From: Acidimicrobiales bacterium
Lineage (GTDB): Bacteria; Actinomycetota; Acidimicrobiia; Acidimicrobiales; SZUA-35
DNA: 33,680 nt
Assembly (NCBI GenBank): GCA_020630065.1
Contig: JAHDCC010000011.1
Span: forward strand, 1 to 33,680
Direction of reading: 5' to 3'
The notes under the pieces are model-generated. The model was not told the origin of the DNA. It did no database searches and saw only the letters and a program-made list of their open reading frames with translations. This document shows, piece by piece, positions 17,557-32,497 of the stretch (positions are counted from its first letter, which is position 1; each line of letters starts with the position of its first letter). The position numbers and the translations under genes are program-made.

Positions 17557-20500
17557 GTGGCTGTGGTAACTGAGCCAAAAAAACCGGAGCCGCAGTCCGA
17601 ACGTCATATTCATCCTGTTCTCGAAACGTTCAGCCAAGCTTCAGCTGAGTGGTTTTCGACCACTTTTGTCGAACCGACCGAACCGCAGAAACAGGGTTGG
17701 CCGGCCATTGCTGCCGGTGATCATACACTCATTCTCGCTCCAACGGGTTCGGGCAAAACCCTCACGGCCTTCTTCTGGGGTCTCGATCAGGTGACGGGCA
17801 ACCCGCCACCGGAAGACAAAAATCACCGGACTCGGATCCTCTACATTTCACCGTTGCGAGCCCTCGCAGTAGACGTCGAAAAAAACTTACAAGCACCGCT
17901 TCAAGGAGTCCGACTTGCCGCCGAGCGGCTTGGCACAACGTTCTACGAACCCGACGTGGCGATCCGCAGCGGGGACACACCCGCCGCCGAACGTCGACGA
18001 CTGGCCTCGCATCCACCCGACCTGCTAATCACCACACCAGAGTCGCTCTACTTGATGTTGACGTCAAAGGTCCGCGAAACCTTGGCCGGTGTCGAAACGA
18101 TCATTATCGACGAAATACACGCCCTCGCCGCCACCAAACGAGGAGCGCACCTATCGACGAGTCTTGAACGACTGGAACGTATATGTGACCGACCTCCGCA
18201 ACGAATCGGACTGTCGGCAACCCAACGCCCGCTAGAAGAAATCGCCCGTTTCCTTGGAGGCTTCGAAGATTCCAAAGCACGGCCGGTCACAGTCATCGAC
18301 GCCGGTATTTCAAAAGAATTAGAAGTCGAAGTTGTTGTCCCCATCGAAGACATGGGCAAACTCGGTGACACCATTGCCCCAGACGTCAACGCCGACCCGG
18401 CCAACCCAGGTCCCAGCCGTCACAGCATCTGGCCATCGATTCACCCACGTCTTTTAGAACTCATCCAAGAGAACAACTCGACAATCGTTTTTGTGAACGC
18501 CCGAAGGCTCGCCGAACGCTTAGCTGTGCGGCTTAACGAGTTAGCGGTCGACGGGCAAAACCGTTCGGCTGAAGCCGAAGGTAAACCACCAGACAATGCT
18601 GGGCAAGAACTCGTGATGGCCCACCACGGTTCGCTCAGCAGAGTGCAGCGTCTCGCCATCGAAGACCGGCTAAAACGTGGAGACCTGAAAGGTCTAGTCG
18701 CAACCTCTTCGCTTGAACTCGGCATCGATATGGGTGCCGTTGATTTGGTAGTCCAAGTGGCGTCTCCCGGAGCGGTAAGCCGTGGATTGCAGCGTGTTGG
18801 TCGGGCCGGTCACCAAGTCGGAGCGCCCAGCCGCGGGAAGTTCTTTCCGAAACATCGCGCTGACTTGCTGGAGATGGCAGTCGTGGTTGAACGAATGGAA
18901 GCTGGTTCAATCGAACAAACCTTCTACCCACGAAACCCTCTCGACGTTCTAGCACAGCAGATAGTGGCCGCCTGCGCCCTAGATGAATGGTCGGTCGATG
19001 ACCTTCGAGAGTGCATGCGAGGCTCAGCGAACTTTAGCGACCTTTCCGACGATGCTTTCTACAACACCCTCGACCTGCTTTCGGGTCGATATCCATCAGA
19101 TGAATTCGCTGAGCTTCGACCTCGCCTGATATGGGACCGGGTAGGTGCAACGGTCAAAGGCCGTCCAGGAGCACAACGTCTAGCGGTTACCAGCGGCGGT
19201 ACTATCCCAGACCGTGGGCTTTACGGCGTGTTCCTTCCCGACGGCACACGCGTCGGTGAACTCGACGAAGAAATGGTGTACGAATCGAGAGTAGGTGAAA
19301 CGTTCCTGCTCGGTGCCAGTACCTGGCGGATCGAAGATATCACTCACGAACGAGTTGTTGTTATTCCAGCCCCCGGTCAGCCCGGAAAGATGCCGTTCTG
19401 GCATGGTGACGGACCAGGTCGACCGCTTGAACTAGGTCGAGCTATCGGCGCGTTTGTACGTAAGATCGGTTCGAAAAAACCGGACCAAGCGCTCGAAATT
19501 TTGACTAGCCAACACCGGCTAGATCCGTTGGCGGCCTCAAACCTACTTTCGTTTATCGACGAACAAAAAGAAGCGACCGGTGGGCATCTTCCAACCGACA
19601 AAACAATCGTTGTCGAACGGTTCAGAGACGAAATAGGCGACTGGAGGGTTTGTGTACTATCACCGTTCGGCTCACAAGTCCACGCCCCATGGGGGATGGC
19701 GCTTCAGCATCGCCTGACCGAACAATGGGGCCTCGATGTCGAACTTATGTGGAGCGACGATGGCATCGTCATCCGACTACCTGAATCGATTGATCAACTC
19801 CCGCTCGACGAACTTATTATCGACCCCGACGACCTCGACGACTTCCTCCTAGCGCAACTGCCTAACTCGGCGCTGTTCGCCGCACGGTTTCGCGAGTGTG
19901 CGGCACGTGCGCTACTGCTGCCGCGTCGACGCCCGGACAAACGAACACCGCTTTGGCAGCAACGGCAAAAAGCGGCCGACTTGCTCGAAGTAGCGAGTAA
20001 ATATCCGAGTTTCCCGATTCTGTTAGAAACCAGCCGAGAATGCCTCAACGACGTGTTCGATGTGCCAGCATTGCGGGGACTCTTATCTGACCTGCGAAGC
20101 CGCAAAGTTAAACTCGTCCCCGTCGATTCCGAAACGTCGTCGCCGTTCGCCCAATCTTTATTGTTTGGTTGGATCGCTCAATACATGTACGAAGGTGACG
20201 CCCCGTTAGCGGAACGCCGCGCCGCTGCTCTTTCACTCGACCGGGAACTCTTGCGCGACATTTTGGGGTCCGAGGAGCTACGGGAGCTGCTCGACGAAGA
20301 CGTGTTGGAAGCGCTCGAAGCTGAACTGCAACGCACCGCCGACAAGTGGAAAGCTCGTCACGTCGACCACGTCGAAGACCTTCTCCGATGGCTCGGTCCG
20401 CTAACTCAAGAAGAGATCGTTCGACGAACCGTTGACGACCTCGATGTCGACACTGCGATCGAACAACTGCAAACCGAACGCAGAATTATCGCTGTAGCCG

Positions 20501-22137
20501 TTACCGGCCAGCGACGATTCGCATCCGCTCAAGACGCATCAAAGCTCAGAGACGCCCTTGGTGTACACCTTCCGCCGGGTTTGCCAGCCGCCTTCACCGA
20601 GTCGGTCAACGACCCGGTTTCAGAGCTAGTTTCGCGGTTCGCTCGCACCCATGGCCCATTTACGACCCGAGACGCTGCCGATGCGTTTGGTCTGCCCGAA
20701 GAGCGGGTGACAACAACGCTTGAAGATTTAGCTCGACAGGGCAGGCTACTCCAAGGCGAGTTTCGTCCCGGAGGTTCGGGTCGGGAATGGTGCCACGACG
20801 ACGTGCTGCGCACGTTGCGGCGACGCTCATTGGCTGCGTTGCGTAAAGAGATCGAACCGGTCGATCAAGTTGTTCTCGCCCGGTTTCTTCCCGCCTGGCA
20901 ACATGTCGGATCCCGGCGTTATGGGGTTGACGGTTTGGCCGAAATCCTCACCACAATGCAGGGTGCTGCTCTGCCCGCATCGATTCTTGAGTCAGACATT
21001 CTGTCCGATCGGCTCAATGGTTATCAGCCCTCAGACCTCGACACATTGCTGACCGCCGGGGAGCTCGTTTGGGTCGGGTCTTCACCACTTGGCAGCAACG
21101 ATGGTCGACTCCGGCTATTGTGGCGAGATCAGGTAGCGGCGTTAGCTCCCGAACCGGGTGATGTTCCCGACGGCAAAATCCATCAAGTGCTCGTAGATCA
21201 CCTCACCACGAGCGGGGCTACTTTCTGGTCGGGCTTAGTTGCCGCTTGTCAACAGGCCGGATGCACCTATACTGATGAGTCTGTGCTGGCAGCGTTATGG
21301 GACCTCGTTTGGAGTGGTCATGTCACCAACGATTCGTTCACCCCAGTCCGGGAACTGATTCGTCGAGGCTCGCCAAAGAAAGGGTCGAAACGACGTCGGG
21401 GAGGTCGCGCCCGCCGACCTAACATGCGGTCATTGTCTCGTACCGGACCGGCCGCCGGAACCGGACGCTGGTCGCTGACATCGGCCCTACGGGAACCAGC
21501 GGTAACCTCCACCGAAGCGTCGGCGAACAAGGCGGCCCAACTCCTTGAACGCTACGGTGTCGTCACCAGAGAAATGGCGCTAGCCGAAGGTGCCGTTGGT
21601 GGATTCGCTGGCGTGTACCCAGTGCTCAAAGAGATGGAAGAACGGGGTCAGGTTCGTCGCGGCTACTTCGTCGAAGGTTTAGGGGCAGCCCAGTTCGCGT
21701 TGGCCGGAGCGGTCGACCGGTTGCGTGACTACCGCGACAGTGGCGAAGGGTTTGTCGAACCCGATGATGAACCTTCGCTCGATAGTCGATGGCTGACGCT
21801 TTCTGCCGGTGACCCAGCCCAGCCATACGGGGCCGCACTTCCTTGGCCTGAAACAAATGGGCGTCCGTCTCGTTCGACCGGAGCGTACGTGATTTCTAGC
21901 GACGGTCACCCGGTTGCCTTCGTTGAACGAGGAGGGCGTAGTTTGGTGGTTTTCGAACCGGGAACCTCCGACTTTGGATGGGTTAGTTCCTTGACTGCTT
22001 TGGTCTCGTCAGGTCGTATCAGAGGTTTGGAGATCCGAACCGTCAACTCTGCCCCTACCGGCGAGAGCCCAGAAATCCGTGACGCTCTTATCGCTGGCGG
22101 GTTTAAGACCGGTTACCGAGGGCCTACGTTTCGTTAG
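17557..22137 (+). CDS. lhr: Lhr-type ATP-dependent DNA helicase
   Basis: A 1526-residue SF2 helicase, the usual size of the long actinobacterial Lhr (core plus C-terminal extension). Motifs: Q-like TEPQKQGWPAI, Walker A APTGSGKT (61-68), Ia ISPLRALAVD, II IIDEIHALA (about 185), III GLSATQRP, and VI QRVGRAGHQ (about 411). The winged-helix and Lhr-specific beta-barrel regions follow (PFWHGDGPGRPLELGRAIG). Lhr is a 3'-5' single-strand translocase that unwinds RNA:DNA hybrids and is induced by DNA damage in mycobacteria. Starts GTG 17557 or 17563 are both possible. No ribosome site is clear, and TACACT at 17549-17554 could give a leaderless transcript beginning near 17563. It stands alone, with no adjacent glycosylase. 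Confidence 0.95.
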   Translation: MAVVTEPKKPEPQSERHIHPVLETFSQASAEWFSTTFVEPTEPQKQGWPAIAAGDHTLILAPTGSGKTLTAFFWGLDQVTGNPPPEDKNHRTRILYISPLRALAVDVEKNLQAPLQGVRLAAERLGTTFYEPDVAIRSGDTPAAERRRLASHPPDLLITTPESLYLMLTSKVRETLAGVETIIIDEIHALAATKRGAHLSTSLERLERICDRPPQRIGLSATQRPLEEIARFLGGFEDSKARPVTVIDAGISKELEVEVVVPIEDMGKLGDTIAPDVNADPANPGPSRHSIWPSIHPRLLELIQENNSTIVFVNARRLAERLAVRLNELAVDGQNRSAEAEGKPPDNAGQELVMAHHGSLSRVQRLAIEDRLKRGDLKGLVATSSLELGIDMGAVDLVVQVASPGAVSRGLQRVGRAGHQVGAPSRGKFFPKHRADLLEMAVVVERMEAGSIEQTFYPRNPLDVLAQQIVAACALDEWSVDDLRECMRGSANFSDLSDDAFYNTLDLLSGRYPSDEFAELRPRLIWDRVGATVKGRPGAQRLAVTSGGTIPDRGLYGVFLPDGTRVGELDEEMVYESRVGETFLLGASTWRIEDITHERVVVIPAPGQPGKMPFWHGDGPGRPLELGRAIGAFVRKIGSKKPDQALEILTSQHRLDPLAASNLLSFIDEQKEATGGHLPTDKTIVVERFRDEIGDWRVCVLSPFGSQVHAPWGMALQHRLTEQWGLDVELMWSDDGIVIRLPESIDQLPLDELIIDPDDLDDFLLAQLPNSALFAARFRECAARALLLPRRRPDKRTPLWQQRQKAADLLEVASKYPSFPILLETSRECLNDVFDVPALRGLLSDLRSRKVKLVPVDSETSSPFAQSLLFGWIAQYMYEGDAPLAERRAAALSLDRELLRDILGSEELRELLDEDVLEALEAELQRTADKWKARHVDHVEDLLRWLGPLTQEEIVRRTVDDLDVDTAIEQLQTERRIIAVAVTGQRRFASAQDASKLRDALGVHLPPGLPAAFTESVNDPVSELVSRFARTHGPFTTRDAADAFGLPEERVTTTLEDLARQGRLLQGEFRPGGSGREWCHDDVLRTLRRRSLAALRKEIEPVDQVVLARFLPAWQHVGSRRYGVDGLAEILTTMQGAALPASILESDILSDRLNGYQPSDLDTLLTAGELVWVGSSPLGSNDGRLRLLWRDQVAALAPEPGDVPDGKIHQVLVDHLTTSGATFWSGLVAACQQAGCTYTDESVLAALWDLVWSGHVTNDSFTPVRELIRRGSPKKGSKRRRGGRARRPNMRSLSRTGPAAGTGRWSLTSALREPAVTSTEASANKAAQLLERYGVVTREMALAEGAVGGFAGVYPVLKEMEERGQVRRGYFVEGLGAAQFALAGAVDRLRDYRDSGEGFVEPDDEPSLDSRWLTLSAGDPAQPYGAALPWPETNGRPSRSTGAYVISSDGHPVAFVERGGRSLVVFEPGTSDFGWVSSLTALVSSGRIRGLEIRTVNSAPTGESPEIRDALIAGGFKTGYRGPTFR

Positions 22138-22160: not shown

Positions 22161-23003
22161 TCAACGTGATCGGAAGTTGGGTTCCCTCTTTTCGATGAAG
22201 GCGTCCATCCCTTCATGGGCTTCGGCGGTATCGAACAAGGCATAGTAGGTTCGTCGTTCGGACAAAACGCCTTCCGCCAAGGTTGTGTGATCGGCCCGAT
22301 CAACGAGTTCTCGAGCAGTCATCGCCGTATGCTTACTGAAGTTAGCAATCTTTGATGCTGTCGACATCGCTACAGTCGCGATGTTTTCGGTTGGCACCAC
22401 ACGCGACACTAGGCCCGAGCTGAGCGCCTCGGAAGCGTCCATCAAACGGCCGGTGAGAATCAGGTCCATAGCTTTTGTTCGCCCGATGAGACGGGTTAGT
22501 CGTTGAGTTCCCCCCATTCCCGGGACGAGTCCGAGGCCGATTTCTGGCTGCCCAAACTTGGCGTCCTCCGACGCGAGGATTACATCACACATCATCGCCA
22601 ATTCGCAGCCGCCACCCAGGGCGTACCCCGAAACGGCCGCAACCTTTGGAGTGCGTAGCGCCGCGAACCGGTCCCAGCCTTCGAAGAAGTTTGAGTCAGA
22701 CATTGAACGGTATGTCTGTTGACGAAGCTCTTTGATGTCGGCTCCCGCAGCGAATGCCCGACGTGATCCGGTGATTAGAAAACAGCCAACAGTAGGATCA
22801 TTGTCTAACGTGCCCAGCACGTCGGTGAGTTGTCGCAGCACTTCAGCGTTGAGGGCGTTTAACGCTTCTGGCCGATTTATTTTAGCTTCGAACACTCGTC
22901 CATGTCGGTTGAACAGTACCGGTGCGTCCCGTTCAGTTAGCGAGTTGTTCGTCTGAGGTTCGTTGGCTTGAGTGTCTATTCGCGGTGTGTTTGTTGGTGG
23001 CAT
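22161..23003 (-). CDS. Enoyl-CoA hydratase (crotonase family)
   Basis: The 280-residue protein has the crotonase fold. The oxyanion-hole segments are SRRAFAAGADIKEL and SGYALGGGCELAMMCDV. The two catalytic Glu of true enoyl-CoA hydratases are both present, in GGGCELAM and FGQPEIGLGLVPGMGG, 20 residues apart as in rat ECH E144/E164. The C-terminus EGMDAFIEKREPNF is also standard. It therefore should hydrate trans-2-enoyl thioesters. The ATG at 23003 shares its A with the stop codon of the upstream flavoprotein gene (TGATG); TTG at 23015 is an alternative. It is the third gene of the adenylation/flavoprotein operon, an unusual place for a hydratase. Confidence 0.92.
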   Translation of the reverse strand: MPPTNTPRIDTQANEPQTNNSLTERDAPVLFNRHGRVFEAKINRPEALNALNAEVLRQLTDVLGTLDNDPTVGCFLITGSRRAFAAGADIKELRQQTYRSMSDSNFFEGWDRFAALRTPKVAAVSGYALGGGCELAMMCDVILASEDAKFGQPEIGLGLVPGMGGTQRLTRLIGRTKAMDLILTGRLMDASEALSSGLVSRVVPTENIATVAMSTASKIANFSKHTAMTARELVDRADHTTLAEGVLSERRTYYALFDTAEAHEGMDAFIEKREPNFRSR

Positions 23004-24466
23004 CACGAGTCCCAAATAGCGCCAAATGCTGGCACCCCAACTCGTTCCATGCCCTCAACCACCAGCCAGGTTAGCTTTTTGTTAGAGATACAGATAACCG
23101 CTTCGGCATCGAATTCTTGGACCGCACGATTAGCTAATTTCACCATGTCGGGTTTGCCATCGGCTTGCGTGTTCCAAATCGTGGCGTGAGGTTGGACAGC
23201 TAAAATCTCATCGACCAACTGGTCGCCGTATGTTTTACGAGGGTCACGAGTCGCCCAAACCAAATGTGCCGGTACTTCTTGTGAAAGTAGATGCGGTAAC
23301 GCTGGGCCGATTCCACTTCCGGTAGCCACCCACACGACCCGTTTGAAAAGTTTGTCTATGTTGCCGACTCCTGCGGTCGGAATGCCTTTGACCCACAAAT
23401 GTGAGGGTGTTTCATCGATAAAGTCGCCGGTCCAGTCTCCGGCGCGAGAGATCGTCAGCCGGTAACCCTCTTTGCCTGGGCTAGGCACGTTGGCGAACGA
23501 ATGCCATTCGGTTAGCGGGCTCCGGCTGACCGCGGTCGATGACCCAGCAAACGGCGTCACTCCGTAGTCGAAGTTGACTAACGCAACATGGTCGGAAGGT
23601 CGTGTGATCTCAACCGGCACTTTTTTCAATTCCAGCCAAGGAAGAACAACACTTGTGGTCACGAGAGCTAGCAGCCAAAACCCGAGTGACCCGATAAGCG
23701 CTGAGAGCACCGAACCGTCAGCATTGTTAGCGGCGGCAAACAAGGCAGTATGGATCCAAAACAGAAGGAGAGATGTCCAGCCGCCGAAACGGTGAACAAG
23801 TTCAAACCTATCGTGATACGCCGCCCTGAATCTCGGGAGCGAGAACCCAATCATTGCTACTAGCAGAGCGAGCAGGGCGACAGAAATCGCGACCAGCGCG
23901 CCCGAAACCCCCGGCAGATCAGCAGCGTAGTGATAGCCAATGCCACCTAAGAAAGCTGCGAACCAGATCGTGCCAGCGATCGCTCCGCCGACATGTATGC
24001 CTCCGAAATGGTAGATCTTTCCGAGTGTCCAACGCACCCTAAGTGGCCAACTTGTAGGTGCCGCGGTTGCGACTTTGAACAAAAGGTTCACGACATGTTG
24101 TTGACGAATCAATATGGCAACTGTCAGATTGACTATTGCCGTGTTGCCGATGGCGGCCAAATTGAAACCGTTGCCGGTCGACCACCAGCTACCAGCTGTC
24201 AGGCCATATGCGGCAACCGCCATATTGCTTACTACAACCAAAACAACTAAACGGTTGTAGGCCATCAATCGACGATCTTTAAACAGTCGACGTATGGTCG
24301 AAATTTGAGGCGGCAGTTCGTCGTTTTCGTACCCGTCAATTACCAGGGGTTCGGTTCGAGCGGTTGATTCTTGGTGCGTGGGAAACGGAGCTGGAGGCGT
24401 TGCGTGGTCGAGTGTTTCTTTACGGGGAGCGTTTGCAGAAGTTGGCGGTGAGAACGTTTTTGTCAT
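23003..24466 (-). CDS. Ferric-reductase-like transmembrane flavoprotein (TmpL C-terminal-like)
   Basis: 487 residues. A polar N-terminus (1-70) is followed by about six membrane helices (72-277) with His residues at 153, 158, 225 and 239 (VHRFGGWTSLLLFWIHT), which could bind haem as in ferric reductases and NADPH oxidases. The C-terminal cytosolic part contains EWHSFANVP (320-328), like the HPF(S/T) FAD motif, and the NAD(P) motif ATGSGIGPALPHLL (381-394). It could move electrons from NAD(P)H across the membrane. The order and its fusion partner elsewhere resemble the fungal TmpL protein, which joins an AMP-binding domain to such a membrane flavoprotein. Its ATG overlaps the stop of the adenylation gene as ATGA. 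Confidence 0.7.
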   Translation of the reverse strand: MTKTFSPPTSANAPRKETLDHATPPAPFPTHQESTARTEPLVIDGYENDELPPQISTIRRLFKDRRLMAYNRLVVLVVVSNMAVAAYGLTAGSWWSTGNGFNLAAIGNTAIVNLTVAILIRQQHVVNLLFKVATAAPTSWPLRVRWTLGKIYHFGGIHVGGAIAGTIWFAAFLGGIGYHYAADLPGVSGALVAISVALLALLVAMIGFSLPRFRAAYHDRFELVHRFGGWTSLLLFWIHTALFAAANNADGSVLSALIGSLGFWLLALVTTSVVLPWLELKKVPVEITRPSDHVALVNFDYGVTPFAGSSTAVSRSPLTEWHSFANVPSPGKEGYRLTISRAGDWTGDFIDETPSHLWVKGIPTAGVGNIDKLFKRVVWVATGSGIGPALPHLLSQEVPAHLVWATRDPRKTYGDQLVDEILAVQPHATIWNTQADGKPDMVKLANRAVQEFDAEAVICISNKKLTWLVVEGMERVGVPAFGAIWDS

Positions 24467-26124
24467 GTCTGGGTTCCTTCTAAAGATGTAGCTTCAGCTG
24501 TCTGTTTCGCCAGATCTAACAGTTTTCGTTTGTCGATCTTGCCTCGTGTTGTTCGAGGGAGTTCGTCGATGGCGTACACGGCGCTCGGTACACAGTAGTA
24601 AGGCAGTGCAGTCGCGACCTGGGCTTGAGCCTGTGCCGGGTCGACGGTACTTGGGGCTACGAACGCGACCAGATGTCGACTGTCTAGTTTGAGCGTCACC
24701 GCCGCTTTGCAGTGATTGACCGATTCAAGAACCGTTGATACCGAATCGAGTTCGACTCTAAAGCCACGAATTTTGACTTGATCGTCGGTGCGTCCATGGT
24801 GTTCCAGTTCGCCGTCCACGGTCCAGCGGCCTAAGTCTCGTGTGCGGAACATCATCTTTCCGGATCCGAGGAATGGGTCCGGCTTGTACCGCTCGGTCGT
24901 TAGCAGAGCGTTGTTGAGATAACCCGATGTTACACAGTCGCCTCCGGCCCACATTTCGCCGACCTCTCCGACCGGTAGCGGTTGTAGATCCTCATCGAGG
25001 ATATAAACAGTGTTGTTCGGAGTCGGTGTCCCAATAGTTAATGTTGCCTCTGCTGGATCGTACCGCTTGATCGTATTGACGATAGTGGTTTCGGTCGGTC
25101 CGCAAGAGTTGTGGAAGGTGGCGAACGCACTCCACGTGTCGGCTAACGGTTGGGGGCAGGGTTCGCCTGCGACGGCGACGATTGAGGCTCGTTGGCAATT
25201 CGCTGGGTTTAGCGACCCGAGGACCGACGGGGTAGCGATGATGACGTCGGCCTGACTGGCCGTCTCTTCGATGTCGCTTCCCCTGATAAGTAATCTCGCT
25301 CCATTGGTGAGCGCCCCCAGTGTTTCCCATGCCGCCATATCGAATGAGATGCTTAGAATTTGGGCGACCGTCATGCCTGGTTCTATGCCGAGGTTGCCGG
25401 GTTTGGTGAGAAGGATGTTGCAGAGGTTTCGGTGTGAAACTCGAACCCCGTTCGGGGCACCCGTTGTACCCGAGGTAAACAGTACGAAACAGTCATCGTC
25501 GGGCATTCCCATCTCATCCAAGGCTGTAGTCGGCTGAACTGAGTTGGAACCCCGAGTGGTGGCGACTGCTGCGTCGATTGGGATCACGACAGTGCTTTCG
25601 ATCGTTGGAACCAGTTTTAGATGTGATGAGGTCGTGAGAATGACGGTGGCTTTGGTCTGTTCAACGACGTGACGTAGCTGCGATTCAGGGGCGACCATCA
25701 CATCTTGTGGAACGTAGGTTGCTCCCGTCTTCAGCGTCGCTAAGATGCCAACCACCATAGGGATGGAACGCCTTAGGAATAGCGCTACGTTGTCTCCTCG
25801 TTTGACCCCTTCGTTGACGAGCACAGCAGCGAGATGGTTTGATTGTTCTTCGAGCTCGGCGTAGGTGATCGACGTTCCGAGATGCTCCACTGCGGTGGCG
25901 GTTGGTTGACGAGCTGCCCAATAGCCAAACGCCCGGTGGATCAATACGTGGTCGGGTTTGGACGATGGGCCGACACCGAATGAGGTGAATAGTTCTTGAT
26001 CTGTGGGCGAAAGGTTCGATATCGAATCGGGCCTTATCGTCAACCCTTGTGAAGGTTCAGTACGGGGATCTGGGGGTGGAGCTGTCATGTCGGTTGTGGG
26101 TGGTGCAGTGCTGGCGGTGATCAT
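24463..26124 (-). CDS. NRPS-like amino-acid adenylation protein without carrier domain
   Basis: The 553-residue ANL-superfamily enzyme has core motifs A3 FTSGTTGAPNGV (216-227), A4 FDMAAWE (261-267), A5 NSCGPTETT (339-347), A7 FRTRDLGRW (426-434), A8 GRTDDQVKIRGFRVEL and A10 RTTRGKIDKRKL with K529. Asp262 at the position of GrsA D235 suggests an alpha-amino acid substrate. My hand-aligned specificity code is D-M-W-A-A-A-S-I-V-K, approximate. Two usually fixed residues differ: Asn225 replaces the A3 Lys, and Arg429 replaces Gly in A7. The protein ends soon after A10, so no thiolation or reductase domain is present. Start ATG 26124 with AAAGAG 5 nt upstream. It heads the three-gene operon. Confidence 0.85.
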   Translation of the reverse strand: MITASTAPPTTDMTAPPPDPRTEPSQGLTIRPDSISNLSPTDQELFTSFGVGPSSKPDHVLIHRAFGYWAARQPTATAVEHLGTSITYAELEEQSNHLAAVLVNEGVKRGDNVALFLRRSIPMVVGILATLKTGATYVPQDVMVAPESQLRHVVEQTKATVILTTSSHLKLVPTIESTVVIPIDAAVATTRGSNSVQPTTALDEMGMPDDDCFVLFTSGTTGAPNGVRVSHRNLCNILLTKPGNLGIEPGMTVAQILSISFDMAAWETLGALTNGARLLIRGSDIEETASQADVIIATPSVLGSLNPANCQRASIVAVAGEPCPQPLADTWSAFATFHNSCGPTETTIVNTIKRYDPAEATLTIGTPTPNNTVYILDEDLQPLPVGEVGEMWAGGDCVTSGYLNNALLTTERYKPDPFLGSGKMMFRTRDLGRWTVDGELEHHGRTDDQVKIRGFRVELDSVSTVLESVNHCKAAVTLKLDSRHLVAFVAPSTVDPAQAQAQVATALPYYCVPSAVYAIDELPRTTRGKIDKRKLLDLAKQTAEATSLEGTQT

Positions 26125-26472
26125 AAGACTCTTTCATAGACGGAGATGAGTAGTTGTGACAGACCAACCAACAGGCAACGGTAGCGACAGCGTTCCGAGT
26201 GCTCGTATTGTTCACCAGCTTGAAAGAGCCATTAACTAGTGCTGAATAATCCCTGTTTTATTTGACAGCAATTCCTAACGTCGAATCCGGGTTTGAGTCA
26301 TGTATTGCGACGCGTAAAACCCCCACCAGGTTGCGGGATCGTCGGGGTATCGGCGAACGAGATAGTTGAAGCGTGCCTATGGCGGTAGCCGTTGACGGTG
26401 ATGTTCGTTCTGGTGAAGGAGAGGGTAAGATCCAGTCGACGATTGATTAGCCTAATTTGGAGGAATTGGCGG
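26125..26472. promoter_or_regulatory. Divergent promoter region, adenylation operon versus RDD gene
   Basis: 348 bp without a credible gene. On the minus strand TTGCTG (as CAGCAA at 26266-26271) and TATTCA (as TGAATA at 26243-26248) are 17 bp apart and could be the operon promoter, leaving a leader of over 100 nt. On the plus strand TTGACA at 26262-26267 is a perfect -35 but has no good -10 partner. I see no strong inverted repeat. Confidence 0.35.
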
Positions 26473-27180
26473 ATGAATTCAACGGGTAGCCCATCTCCTG
26501 GTTGGTACCAAGCTGAAGCCGACCCGCCTGGTACCGAACGGTACTGGGACGGCTCTGTCTGGACGAACGAAAGTCGTCTGTCGGGCACCCCGTTCTCGTT
26601 GCCTGACCTAGTTCAGGGTGCTCCTCAAGGCCAGCATTTCATCGAATCCAATCTCGCAGGGTTAGGTAACCGGGTAGGCGCTCGTGCTCTTGACGTGATT
26701 GTGTGGTTCATCATTGGCTTGATACTGCAAGCGCCACTGTTTTTTATTGTCGGTTCAGAGGCAGTTGACGCCCAGGTCGAAGGTGTGCGTCTACCCCTAT
26801 GGGTTTCGCTGGTGCAGGTGGGTGCGGCCGTGGTGCAGCTGGCCGTAATCGTTGCCTACGAGGCGCTACTAACAAAGATGTATACCTCGACGTTAGGTAA
26901 GAAGGTTACGAGCACCAAGATCGTAAAACTCGACGGGTCGCCGTTAACGTTTGTTGATCACATAAAGCGTTTGTCGCCATATATTGTTGTGGTTCTGATC
27001 GGGACCATCACTTCTAGTTTCGTACCTCAAGACCCGGCAATCGTCGTCGTCTTATCGATCGTTGTTGCCGCAGTGCAGTTTCTTATAGGCGTAGCAGGAA
27101 TTGCCATGGTCGCCTCTGACGACAGTGAACAGGCTCTTTGGGACAAGATTTCAAAGACCACGGTTATTCACAACCGGTGA
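26473..27180 (+). CDS. DUF2510-RDD family membrane protein
   Basis: 235 residues. The N-terminal DUF2510 module is seen in PGWYQAEADPPGTERYWDG followed by SVWT (about 9-31), a small tryptophan-rich domain common in Actinomycetota membrane proteins. The RDD domain follows from about residue 60, with NRVGARALDVIVWFIIG, the second helix after a polar loop, and TLGKKVTSTKIVKLDG before the last two helices. RDD proteins are small integral membrane proteins of poorly known function, some implicated in ion exchange. ATG at 26473 has GGAGG nearby; the frame is open from 26392, but this start gives the complete DUF2510 motif. Confidence 0.85.
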   Translation: MNSTGSPSPGWYQAEADPPGTERYWDGSVWTNESRLSGTPFSLPDLVQGAPQGQHFIESNLAGLGNRVGARALDVIVWFIIGLILQAPLFFIVGSEAVDAQVEGVRLPLWVSLVQVGAAVVQLAVIVAYEALLTKMYTSTLGKKVTSTKIVKLDGSPLTFVDHIKRLSPYIVVVLIGTITSSFVPQDPAIVVVLSIVVAAVQFLIGVAGIAMVASDDSEQALWDKISKTTVIHNR

Positions 27181-29014: not shown

Positions 29015-32000
29015 ATGACGTGTTCTGCCTGTGGCTCCGAAGTGTCACCTAATGATAGGTTCTGCTCACGATGTGGATCTTCCTTGTCGGTCGCAGACGA
29101 AGAGCGTCGCGTCATCTCGGTTTTGTTTGCCGATATTGTCGGCTTCACCACGTTGGCTGAGCGGTTAGACCCTGAAGAGGTTAAACGCCTGGTCGATCGC
29201 TGGTTTAAGCGCCTTACCGAAGACATTAACTCGTTCGGTGGTGTGGTAGATAAAGTTCTCGGTGATGCCATTGTTGCCTTGTTTGGTGCGCCGGTCGCTC
29301 ACGAAGATGATGCTGAACGGGCGGTTCGGGCTGCTTTAAAGATGCAAAGCTCTCTTCAGGAGTTGGCGGTTGAGTTTGGGGCGATCGAGATGCGGATCGG
29401 TATTAACACCGGTCAGGTCTTAGTTGGGACATCCACCGGCGGCGACTATACCGCTATGGGAGATGTGATGAATTCTGCCGCCCGACTTCAGGGTTTGGCA
29501 GAGCCGGGTCAAATTCTGGTCGGGGCAAACACACATAGCGCCACTAAAGACGCCATCCGCTATGACGCTGCCGGTATGTTAAAGGCCAAAGGGCGGGAAG
29601 ATTTACTGGAAACCTGGATCGCTACCGAGACGACTCGCACTCCGGGCACTCACCGTCAACGCGAAGGGGCCTTTGTCGGTAGGGATAATGAAGTTCAGCT
29701 GTTGATGGCTCAAAGCCGGTTAGCGGTCGAACGTTCACAGGCACAGATGGCGCTGATTTTGGGCGAAGCCGGTTTGGGAAAGACCAGGCTTGTACAACAC
29801 ACCGCTAACTCGTTATCCGAACAATACGATGCCCTTTTAATTCGAGGTCGATGTGTTCCGTATGGGGTCGCCAATGTGTGGTGGCCGCTGGCTGACATTA
29901 CTCGCCAGATTTTCGGATTCGAAATCGACCAGTCGCAAACTCATGTTGAGAAAGAACTAAATAACCAGCTGTCGGCTCGGTTCGGCACTGACCACCCTAA
30001 CTACGACCGATTCTTTACTAGTATTTTGCATGCGTTGGGTTATGACACGGCGCTTCGCGGCGGGTACCGTAACCGCAACCGGTCGGAAGTTTTGTTTGCT
30101 ACGGCGTCACTCTTTTCGAGTTTGTTAGAGGAGCGACCTTTGGTGGTCGTGTTGGCCGACATGCATTGGGCTGCCGACGCTATTTGGCTGCTACTCGACC
30201 ATCTGATGGAGCAGCTGAGCGGGAAGCGTCTGATGGTGTTGTTGACGGCGCGTGAGGTAGAAAGCGACGTGCTGCATTCGGTTCATCGCCGTTTGTCGGT
30301 CACACATCTCGGACCACTCGACGAAGAATCGTCCCGACGCTTGCTTAGCGATTTCGCCCCGGATTTGCCGCCAGCGATGGCTAAAGATTTGGTGCACAGA
30401 GCGGGAGGTAACCCGTTTTTCCTCGAAGAGCTAGCAGGCCTTGTGCGGTCGCAGGGAATGGACGAGAAATCGTTTGCCGTTGGTTCGGGTACGGATCGAC
30501 TGGCCGAGCTTCCTGATTCTCTTAGAGGGATTGTGGCTGCCCGGGTCGATAATCTTAACGCCCGGGAACGTGCTGTTCTTGAGGGTGCCGCCGTGATCGG
30601 AAGTAGCGGCCGTATTCGTCATTTGCAGATCATGTCCGATCAGTCTCACGGTGATGGTGACATTACGCCAACCCTTGAATTGCTGGAACAGAAAGGTCTA
30701 CTTTCGCTCGACGGTAGCCGATACTCATTTAAGTCCGATGTCGTGCGAGATGTCGCATACGGGACGATCACCAAAGCGGTTCGAGCGAAACGTCACTACG
30801 ACTTTGCCGAGCATTTAGCATCGACACAGACCGGTGGCATCAGAAACTCGGTTGTGGTGGCGATCGCAGACCATTATCGAGCAGCAGCTGAACTGTCATC
30901 TGAGCTATCTTCGGTTGGTTCGACCGACCGGCTCGATGCCAAAGAAAAAGCTCTCTTCTGGCTACGTCAAGCGGGTGATCGGGCGTTAGCGGTGGATCAA
31001 CCCGTTCAGGCCGCCAAATGGTTTTCTTATGGGGTGGCGATGGCTACCGATCCGGTTACCGCTGTCGACTTTTTGTACGGTCGGGCGTCGGCTCGTTGTG
31101 AAGTGCACGACATCCGAGGTTCGAAGGCTGATCTTGATCGTCTGGATGAACTAGTTGTTGATCCCAAGATGAAGGCTAAAGTCTTGATGATTCGCGGCGA
31201 CACGGATCGCAAAGCCGGGGATCTTGATCTGGCATCTTCTCGTCTTCGTGAGGCTGCTGATCGACTTGGCGTTCTGGGCAGCTATAACGACCAGGCAAAA
31301 GCTCTTCGTCTGCTTGGGTTGGCTGAAATGCGCCGTCTCGACGGCAGTCTCGCTCATCAGGCGTTGGAGGCTTCACGACGGGTGGCCGCCGACGCTGGGG
31401 ATAAAGGGGGAGAAGCGTGGGCGTTGCAAAGTTTGGCCTGGTTAGCGTTTCGTTATGGCCGCACGATCGAAGCTAAAGGTTTAGTTGACGATGCTATGCG
31501 GGTGTTTGAGGAACTCGGTGATCGAGGTGGCTTGACCCGCACAAAGAGTATCGATGCGTGGGTGGCCTTTCACCAAGGTCGAGCTGGTGATGCCCAGCTT
31601 CTAGTCGATGAGGTTTTGCCCGAAACTCGGCGTCGAGGTGACCCCTGGTCTGAAGGTTTGACACTGAACTTGGCGGCTTCGCTTAAACTGTGGTCAGGTC
31701 AAGCCGCCGATGCCTATGAGCTGGCTCGGCAATCTCAAGAGGTAGCGAAAGACTCTGACGCCCCGAACGTGATCGCTCAGGCCCGAGCGTTGGAAGGCCG
31801 GTCTCTTGTTTCGTTGGGCCGTGTCGCCGAAGGTGTTGAAGTGTTGGAGGCCGCCTACGTTCACGCCGATCGGGTCGATAGTAAAGAAAGTCGACGGCTA
31901 GCGGCAGCCAGTAACTGCGCGTCGGCTGCCCGTTTAGGCGAGCCTGAGCGGGCGTTGCTGTGGGCCAATCGGTACACCGGTATTAGTAAAGCTCCGGCCG

Positions 32001-32497
32001 TGGTCGGTGAGGTTGATTTGACGGTGTCGTGGGCGTTGGCTCTGCTGCAACGAGGTGAACTGGGCGAGGCGATCAAAAAACTCGAATGGGTTGGGTTAGA
32101 GCAAAGCCAAACCGCTGACTACTACGGGCTTGCGACGGCCGCTGTGTTGGAAGCAGCGCAAGGCCATGTCAGCCATGCTGAACGGTATATCGATCAAGTT
32201 TTGATTGGTCGGGCGACGTATCTTGATCGTGTGTTAGCGATGTTGGCGTGGGCGGCGACTAAATACCAGATTGGTGATACCGAGGGCTGTCGAGATGCTA
32301 TTCGCGCCGCCCGAGACGAGGTTAGTGGTACCGATGACAGCACCACACCGTTGATGATTGATTTGGTCGCTGGTGTTTGCGGTTTGCGAGACTTGAAGAC
32401 CGCAGAGCAACAGATGCTTAATAGTGGACTTGAGCCGACCGGCTGGCGTACTGCCTGGGAGTTGGCGACGTCGCATCGCAAAGCCCCGACTGGTTAG
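29015..32497 (+). CDS. Class IIIb adenylate cyclase-AAA ATPase-TPR regulator
   Basis: 1160 residues. A zinc ribbon (C3, C6, C17, C20) precedes a class III cyclase domain with metal-binding D40 and D84, base-contacting K80, and transition-state N153 and R157. All catalytic positions are present. The second base-selecting position is Thr (T146), as in class IIIb cyclases that can respond to bicarbonate. An AAA_16/STAND-type ATPase follows, with P-loop GEAGLGKT (250-257) and Walker B LVVVLADMHWAADAIW. The C-terminal half is alpha-helical TPR-like repeats. The layout suggests a large signal integrator making cAMP in response to ligands bound by the TPR/ATPase part. AGG is only 2 nt before ATG, so the gene is probably leaderless. 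Confidence 0.9.
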   Translation: MTCSACGSEVSPNDRFCSRCGSSLSVADEERRVISVLFADIVGFTTLAERLDPEEVKRLVDRWFKRLTEDINSFGGVVDKVLGDAIVALFGAPVAHEDDAERAVRAALKMQSSLQELAVEFGAIEMRIGINTGQVLVGTSTGGDYTAMGDVMNSAARLQGLAEPGQILVGANTHSATKDAIRYDAAGMLKAKGREDLLETWIATETTRTPGTHRQREGAFVGRDNEVQLLMAQSRLAVERSQAQMALILGEAGLGKTRLVQHTANSLSEQYDALLIRGRCVPYGVANVWWPLADITRQIFGFEIDQSQTHVEKELNNQLSARFGTDHPNYDRFFTSILHALGYDTALRGGYRNRNRSEVLFATASLFSSLLEERPLVVVLADMHWAADAIWLLLDHLMEQLSGKRLMVLLTAREVESDVLHSVHRRLSVTHLGPLDEESSRRLLSDFAPDLPPAMAKDLVHRAGGNPFFLEELAGLVRSQGMDEKSFAVGSGTDRLAELPDSLRGIVAARVDNLNARERAVLEGAAVIGSSGRIRHLQIMSDQSHGDGDITPTLELLEQKGLLSLDGSRYSFKSDVVRDVAYGTITKAVRAKRHYDFAEHLASTQTGGIRNSVVVAIADHYRAAAELSSELSSVGSTDRLDAKEKALFWLRQAGDRALAVDQPVQAAKWFSYGVAMATDPVTAVDFLYGRASARCEVHDIRGSKADLDRLDELVVDPKMKAKVLMIRGDTDRKAGDLDLASSRLREAADRLGVLGSYNDQAKALRLLGLAEMRRLDGSLAHQALEASRRVAADAGDKGGEAWALQSLAWLAFRYGRTIEAKGLVDDAMRVFEELGDRGGLTRTKSIDAWVAFHQGRAGDAQLLVDEVLPETRRRGDPWSEGLTLNLAASLKLWSGQAADAYELARQSQEVAKDSDAPNVIAQARALEGRSLVSLGRVAEGVEVLEAAYVHADRVDSKESRRLAAASNCASAARLGEPERALLWANRYTGISKAPAVVGEVDLTVSWALALLQRGELGEAIKKLEWVGLEQSQTADYYGLATAAVLEAAQGHVSHAERYIDQVLIGRATYLDRVLAMLAWAATKYQIGDTEGCRDAIRAARDEVSGTDDSTTPLMIDLVAGVCGLRDLKTAEQQMLNSGLEPTGWRTAWELATSHRKAPTG

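Follow-up and report, generated by a model that had tools for sequence, protein, structure and literature searches.

A 33,680-nucleotide stretch of DNA from an Acidimicrobiales bacterium (GenBank assembly GCA_020630065.1, contig JAHDCC010000011.1, positions 1 to 33,680; hereafter the window) carries an operon of three genes, A, B and C, which encode a stand-alone adenylation domain of the nonribosomal peptide synthetase (NRPS) type, a membrane flavoprotein with a predicted NADPH-oxidase fold and an enoyl-CoA hydratase (crotonase) (Table 1). Comparison with other genomes confirmed that this trio is a real conserved system. We consider it probable, from motifs and domain order, that the trio belongs to the family of the fungal proteins TmpL and TmpB; the fungal comparison rests throughout on published motifs and descriptions. 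The fuller reading takes the trio for a bacterial counterpart of TmpL/TmpB, in most cases split into separate genes, whose three enzymes form a complete pathway of their own on the inner side of the membrane; it has in our judgement an even chance of being right.

The trio recurs across bacterial phyla

A profile of B was searched against one genome per species from 84,980 bacterial and archaeal species, which returned 199 relatives; the best 80 were fetched. Because fetching relied on short conserved patterns in B, the remaining 119 relatives fall outside the counts given here. Rows of A below 300 bits and of C below 120 bits were excluded before residues were counted, which left 83 A, 91 B and 82 C rows. 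Two loci that look like one contig (L011 and L032) are both within these counts, and L025 is scored as having A though its contig begins inside that gene.

All three genes occur together in 75 of the 80 loci, as separate genes in 68 and with A and B fused in seven. The carriers belong to the Actinomycetota, Chloroflexota, Bacteroidota and Pseudomonadota and include one cyanobacterium. A preliminary description of the window, made from its sequence alone, had staked its reading on the three genes being neighbours elsewhere and had called for a search for fused versions; neighbours they are, and the fusions have the single-protein layout of TmpL. Wherever both were scored, A precedes B on the same strand, the exceptions being L063 and L086, in which the automatically chosen start of B lies 25 bases ahead of that of A. 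In 82/82 rows C lies downstream of B and on its strand, separated from it by 416 bp at most. Three of the five remaining loci have their missing partners explained by contig ends (L023 and L038 stop just after B and L084 starts inside B). Gene order and A-B fusions, together with the near-fixed substrate code of A and the catalytic residues of C described below, are direct observations. The three families correlate in their identity matrices (Spearman 0.83, 0.61 and 0.62 over 79 rows, with the relatedness of rows uncorrected).

Closer to the window, a strong match to B was found in six of 98 other genomes related to that of the window, and a marginal one in three more. The trio lies side by side in four of the six (G032, G038, G023 and G034); in G054 it consists of an A-B fusion plus C, and in G009 it is interrupted by a contig end. 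The family is patchy: of 296 genomes sampled from the phylum, three have it at E 1e-20, the window's own included. The fused and split states changed at least six times on a quick 52-row tree. On a quick tree of A and B, the window groups with L032 (98), apart from other members of its own family. A constrained tree that keeps the six Acidimicrobiia rows together had the better likelihood (p-AU 0.82), and horizontal transfer of the window copy is therefore not claimed.

Gene A has a near-fixed substrate code

Gene A matches Pfam AMP-binding (E 3.5e-65) and, at 330.8 bits, exceeds the curated cut-off of 317.4 for NCBIfam TIGR01733. Its closest solved structure is linear gramicidin synthase, with gramicidin synthetase 1 lower down. 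The core motifs are kept, and A is 56-63% identical in the first five aligned trio relatives; adenylation domains on plasmids are at most 38% identical to it among the 12 of 206 records listed. Pfam listed no carrier or condensation domain in A, B or C, which bears out what had been read from the window at the outset and means that the trio is not a complete NRPS.

The ten positions that we take to line the substrate pocket, placed by eye using gramicidin synthetase numbering, are D262, M263, W266, I296, A317, A319, S340, I348, V349 and K529 in the window protein. The consensus D-M-W-[IV]-A-A-x-I-[VI]-K holds in 83/83 rows: seven of the ten positions are identical throughout, two alternate between I and V, and the one corresponding to Ala322 of PheA is S in 34 rows, C in 27, A in 18 and G in 4. 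The pocket is hydrophobic, with small residues lining part of it. An Asp at the first code position is the usual mark of an alpha-amino acid in NRPS. The code is near-fixed, which suggests that the A family activates a single substrate; judged by its pocket residues, this is probably a hydrophobic alpha-amino acid.

The pocket agrees with what is published for TmpB of Aspergillus nidulans, which is reported to have D238, W242, G309, I315 and K495 at PheA positions, and C307 at that of Ala322 (PMC4804170). As far as that description goes, its D, W, I and K are found in 83/83 bacterial rows and its G in at least 93%, and its Cys is the residue of the 27 rows counted above.

Gene B is a predicted membrane flavoprotein with an incomplete haem-ligand pattern

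Neither Pfam nor NCBIfam assigned the window B protein to any family, PF01794 (Ferric_reduct) included. In a scan of 57 members of the B family, PF01794 was weakly matched by four (best E 2.5e-5), two DUF families weakly matched one member each, and NCBIfam gave a single weak, chance-like match in one member. B represents a widespread membrane flavoprotein family without a Pfam or NCBIfam name in these scans.

The AlphaFold model of B is confident (mean pLDDT 89.3, pTM 0.85) and has six membrane helices, read off the model by eye, followed by an FAD/NAD(P) domain. Foldseek placed the NADPH oxidase (NOX) of Streptococcus pneumoniae first (E 1.3e-12). VIA-align aligned 406 residues of B with human NOX2 (8wej_B) at 3.7 A and Z 23.0 and gave Z 22.8 for S. 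pneumoniae NOX (8qta), with 13% identity in both alignments; it rescored Foldseek matches only, and unlisted families may also match. Sequence searches of the PDB reached a best E of 0.054 with the single protein and of 0.004 (NOX2) with the profile. Aligned by hhalign with six PF01794-type proteins of related genomes, the B profile scored E 3e-7 at a probability of 93%, with its FAD and NAD(P) motifs in register with theirs. These six are the clear ferric-reductase-type members of ten control ORFs; the other four were kept out of hhalign on account of unexpected histidine spacing and possibly wrong frames. The NAD(P) motif GSGIGP occurs in 87/91 B rows, the window included, and in 0/10 of the control ORFs, all of which entered this count. 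Instead of RLHFD, the FAD motif published for TmpL, 83/91 B rows carry FD[Y/H/L]GxTPF. A model of a fused A-B protein reached a mean pLDDT of 89.4 and a pTM of 0.62. The plasmid rows and most of those from Streptomyces are absent from structure alignments A5 and A6.

In canonical ferric reductases and NADPH oxidases, two His on each of two helices hold two haems, through which electrons cross the membrane, and the six control proteins display the H-x13-H and H-x12-H spacing. Among the B rows, His153 (88/91) and His225 (91/91) lie near the cytoplasmic ends of helices 3 and 5. The deeper partner on helix 3, 14 residues after His153, is a residue other than His in at least 88/91 rows, and position 239, the partner on helix 5, is His in 46/91, so that the two-haem His pattern is absent. 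Two further histidines, His158 (23993-23995) and His218 (23813-23815), are invariant in 91/91 rows and fall outside the standard two-haem scheme. Going by these residues, B keeps one pair of haem ligands and has not kept the second. Because the second pair is not kept, B probably does not move electrons across the membrane and carries a single haem near the flavin. The pairing of ligands is itself uncertain, as the hhalign register sets helix 5 of B (His225, His239) against helix 3 of the controls; the fold alignment spans the whole length.

The earlier label 'ferric-reductase-like' holds only in the sense of a distant kinship: PF01794 is weakly matched by 4/57 members, the window protein itself has no Pfam match and by its histidines one haem site is missing. 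B as a ferric reductase was set aside, since the second haem pair is not kept.

B also occurs alone on plasmids, in one of Pantoea piersonii (47% identity) and in three of cyanobacteria (about 30%). Five plasmid records with B were seen, of which four were fetched. In L019, the ORF next to the solitary B matches HlyD-type secretion proteins.

Gene C is a crotonase with intact catalytic residues, tied to the operon

Gene C matches Pfam ECH_1 (E 1e-69), and its best solved relative is EchA8 (3h81_A, 300 bits). Against NF004517 (PRK05862) it scores 346 bits, under the cut-off of 396. The catalytic residues Glu138 and Glu158 (284-residue numbering) are present in the window protein and in 82/82 operon rows.

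Eight carrier genomes were searched with the window C protein. The operon copy was the top match in 8/8, at 57-60% identity in seven and 48% in one, and the second-best crotonase of each genome reached 32-50%. In a tree that sets the operon copies beside 27 further crotonases, taken from these genomes and the window genome, 77/82 operon copies form one weakly supported branch. A fixed third enzyme of this kind means that the crotonase belongs to the system.

Genomic surroundings

Table 1. Coordinates of the trio, its junctions and flanking ORFs in the window, and of related features in other loci
Feature	Position	Strand	Description
Gene A	24463-26124	minus	553 aa; stand-alone NRPS-type adenylation domain
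Gene B	23003-24466	minus	487 aa; membrane flavoprotein, NADPH-oxidase fold predicted
Gene C	22161-23003	minus	280 aa from ATG; enoyl-CoA hydratase (crotonase)
Gene C, alternative start	22161-23015	minus	TTG at 23015; 284 aa
A stop/B start	24463-24466	minus	ATGA, 4-bp overlap; from sequence
B stop/C ATG start	23001-23005	minus	TGATG, 1-bp overlap; from sequence
ORF converging on C	17557-22137	plus	1526 aa; helicase-like by eye
ORF diverging from A	26392-27180	plus	262 aa
Solitary plasmid B gene	L018:9965-11320
Solitary plasmid B gene	L019:9878-11170
Solitary plasmid B gene	L020:6475-7767
Solitary plasmid B gene	L021:7905-9197
DUF6733 protein	L031:12128-12865		by Pfam
DUF6733 protein	L030:12199-12933		by Pfam
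Regulator/kinase	L034:8794-11127		by Pfam
Regulator/kinase	L064:2258-4248		by Pfam

In the window's ORF list, the three genes are packed tightly and isolated as a unit, and both overlaps that had been pointed out between them are present in the sequence (Table 1). A scan for promoters and terminators gave sites no more numerous than in shuffled sequence.

No widely recurring gene was found beyond the trio among ORF families common to at least three groups (45 largest clusters listed); neighbouring genes were mostly named by eye or left unnamed, Pfam having been run on eight proteins. A larger biosynthetic cluster was set aside, as no partner gene outside the trio recurs widely. A response regulator is found near the trio in 13 loci of 8 groups and a histidine kinase in 12 loci of 7 groups, the hosts being several gammaproteobacteria, Tenacibaculum and one Micromonospora. 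Besides the two identified by Pfam (Table 1), these were assigned by clustering in L033, L035, L039, L040, L043, L044, L050, L080 and others. Because such regulators and kinases sit near it, the surroundings suggest that expression of the trio is regulated, perhaps by dedicated regulators.

In 6 groups of Bacteroidota, 8 loci in all have a DUF6733 protein after C (median distance 20 bases); clustering adds L024, L062, L022 and L093 to the two loci with a Pfam match. As for the other shared clusters, one is a mixed set of ABC transporters (20 loci in 8 groups), one is small and spans four groups, and two are small and span three. Local synteny among Streptomyces is also seen around the trio.

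Elsewhere in the window, positions 29015-32497 encode a 1160-residue protein that to the eye resembles an adenylate/guanylate cyclase domain fused to a large ATPase and repeat region. Further along the same contig (G000:C56, about 40-47 kb; L017:7362-13939) are genes that by eye resemble those of a phage-tail-like contractile injection system, including a sheath-like protein at L017:7362-8972.

A proposed pathway and its alternatives

We infer every chemical step of the proposed pathway from the parts, their order and their conservation, which are themselves observed. A would activate one particular hydrophobic alpha-amino acid as the adenylate and, having no carrier protein, would most likely release a CoA thioester or pass the adenylate directly to B. 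In B, electrons from NAD(P)H would pass through FAD to a single haem in the inner leaflet, and B would perform a single redox reaction on the activated compound, either itself or through a reduced or oxygen species of its making. Next, an alpha,beta-unsaturated thioester would gain or lose water by the action of C. The outcome may be a small molecule derived from the amino acid and used as a signal or a redox metabolite, which fits the proposal made for TmpB in Aspergillus. Put at its widest, this would be a dedicated pathway of three enzymes, found in filamentous fungi as well as in five or more bacterial phyla, that needs no carrier to make an undescribed small molecule from one particular hydrophobic amino acid and includes a single-haem, NADPH-oxidase-like redox step; this wider claim we make tentatively, as somewhat short of an even chance. 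If true, it would point to a metabolite or signal common to bacteria and fungi that has so far been overlooked.

Several observations weigh against the pathway. Its chief weaknesses are the thioester that C needs without a carrier and the undefined reaction of B. In an NRPS, the adenylation domain normally passes its product to a carrier protein. Since C needs a thioester and the trio includes no carrier, A would have to form a CoA ester or draw on a carrier acting in trans. We also know of no single reaction that puts an NAD(P)H-fed flavoprotein between an adenylating enzyme and a hydratase. Carriers and condensation domains are not foreign to the hosts: the window genome has seven carrier matches (the carrier search being limited to this genome), and a condensation domain occurs somewhere in 9/10 carrier genomes searched. 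As for the trio itself, L069, whose contig opens within the B frame, shows no C over the 1.85 kb that follow, L089 carries B without A or C, and four plasmid loci carry B alone. The branch of 77 operon crotonases is weakly supported (0.49), and five of the 82 operon copies come from another branch, with both catalytic Glu kept. These are found in L049, L071, L083 and L094 (Nonomuraea and three Saccharothrix) and in L022 (Saprospiraceae); because they sit elsewhere in the tree, the operon crotonase seems to have been replaced by another hydratase at these five loci. Lastly, the FAD motif RLHFD of TmpL occurs in 0/91 B rows.

The trio might instead be a redox-balance device without a product, in which B produces or clears reactive oxygen, A acts as a localiser or as a sensor of amino acids or ATP, and C repairs or recycles acyl-CoA. 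The NADPH-oxidase fold of B and the two-component regulators seen beside the trio in the hosts named above would suit such a role. We nevertheless think it unlikely: A has kept its core motifs and a near-fixed code, C has kept both catalytic Glu in every row, the outer haem site that transmembrane superoxide production would use appears to be missing, and tmpB mutants of A. nidulans are reported to be insensitive to H2O2 and menadione (PMC4804170). Rather less probable again is that A loads a carrier of an NRPS encoded elsewhere, with B and C tailoring the carrier-bound amino acid. A is indeed an NRPS-type domain, contig C67 of the window genome encodes a separate NRPS with carrier, condensation and adenylation domains, condensation domains are widespread in carrier genomes as noted, and Bushley and Turgeon suggested that stand-alone adenylation domains act in trans (PMC2823734). 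But no carrier- or condensation-like family common to at least three groups lies beside the trio (names mostly by eye), and the A-B fusions measure 989-1045 residues, roughly the summed length of A and B, so that by length a carrier would not fit. Moreover, no condensation domain was found in G054, which has a fused trio in a genome 94% complete, and G387 gave one short weak condensation match only.

A role in the reduction of iron or siderophores, with B as ferric reductase and A helping to make a chelator, could draw on the distant kinship of B to Ferric_reduct (both the hhalign comparison and the 4/57 Pfam matches) and on the Pantoea plasmid, which has siderophore genes some 5 kb away from B. 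It leaves C without a role, the second haem pair is absent by sequence, and no family resembling siderophore synthesis or uptake is common to at least three groups near the trio (again named mostly by eye); we regard it as very improbable. That the genes are accidental neighbours, C being a housekeeping beta-oxidation enzyme, has next to nothing to recommend it. Crotonases are common, with seven matches in the window genome including C, and five loci carry an operon crotonase from a different branch, but the trio is found in 75/80 loci across five phyla, the operon C is the best match in 8/8 genomes, and the same hydratase neighbour is reported for fungal tmpB (PMC4804170). The first two of these observations refute chance neighbourhood in the main. 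Against these alternatives, we retain the carrier-free pathway as our working account of the trio.

Comparison with known systems

Among described enzymes, B resembles the NADPH oxidases (human NOX2, S. pneumoniae NOX) and ferric reductases in its whole-length fold and FAD/NAD(P) domain but differs from them in being without the second haem-ligand pair and, in the window, without a Pfam match. C shares both catalytic Glu with EchA8/PRK05862 (NF004517) but scores below the cut-off of that family.

The preliminary description had also suggested that the system was not yet described. For the bacterial trio itself, no description was found among the titles and abstract openings listed from the open-licence literature, but TmpB with its adjoining hydratase was known, and so were bacterial adenylation domains of the ChNPS12 subfamily, in which TmpL and TmpB fall in group 1. 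That subfamily is reported to include stand-alone domains of Hahella chejuensis and two Salinispora, and some of its members bear a ferric-reductase-like domain (PMC2823734). The parts were thus known separately, and the bacterial operon joins them. As far as our literature searches reach, what is new in the trio is its form as an operon in bacteria; it is a variant of a fungal system that is known but unexplained.

TmpA of A. nidulans is reported as a solitary membrane flavoprotein (PMC4804170). It stands without an adenylation domain, as do the solitary B proteins of the Pantoea and cyanobacterial plasmids; its partner AfeA is described in the same paper as coumarate-ligase-like, unlike the NRPS-type domain of the trio.

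TmpL, studied in Alternaria brassicicola and Aspergillus fumigatus, is described as an adenylation domain followed by six membrane helices and an FAD/NAD(P) domain, without a carrier or condensation domain and with the NAD(P) motif GSGIGP; a flavin was seen in the spectrum of a partial protein (PMC2766074). The trio is alike in all of these architectural features. As had been noticed at the start, A followed by B reproduces the domain order of TmpL, in the window spread over two genes rather than in one protein, the layout of the seven fused relatives. TmpL differs in being stated to be restricted to filamentous fungi and in having RLHFD, a motif that its authors termed hypothetical and that the bacterial B rows are without; the word 'enoyl' is absent from the main text of that paper (PMC2766074).

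A close likeness is also seen to TmpB of A. nidulans, reported as a protein of 989 residues that joins an adenylation domain to a TmpA-like oxidoreductase, with an enoyl-CoA hydratase/isomerase gene that adjoins tmpB and is kept in several Aspergilli (PMC4804170). TmpL and TmpB are reported to influence spore formation, and TmpL also redox balance and virulence; the parts of these reports considered here name no substrate or product for either protein. The trio shares with TmpB, as published, the adenylation domain with its D/W/G/I/K pocket, the TmpA-like oxidoreductase and the adjoining crotonase, but TmpB is one fused fungal gene and A and B of the window are separate. With a compact bacterial operon, the puzzle posed by TmpL and TmpB becomes approachable in bacteria as ordinary enzymology.

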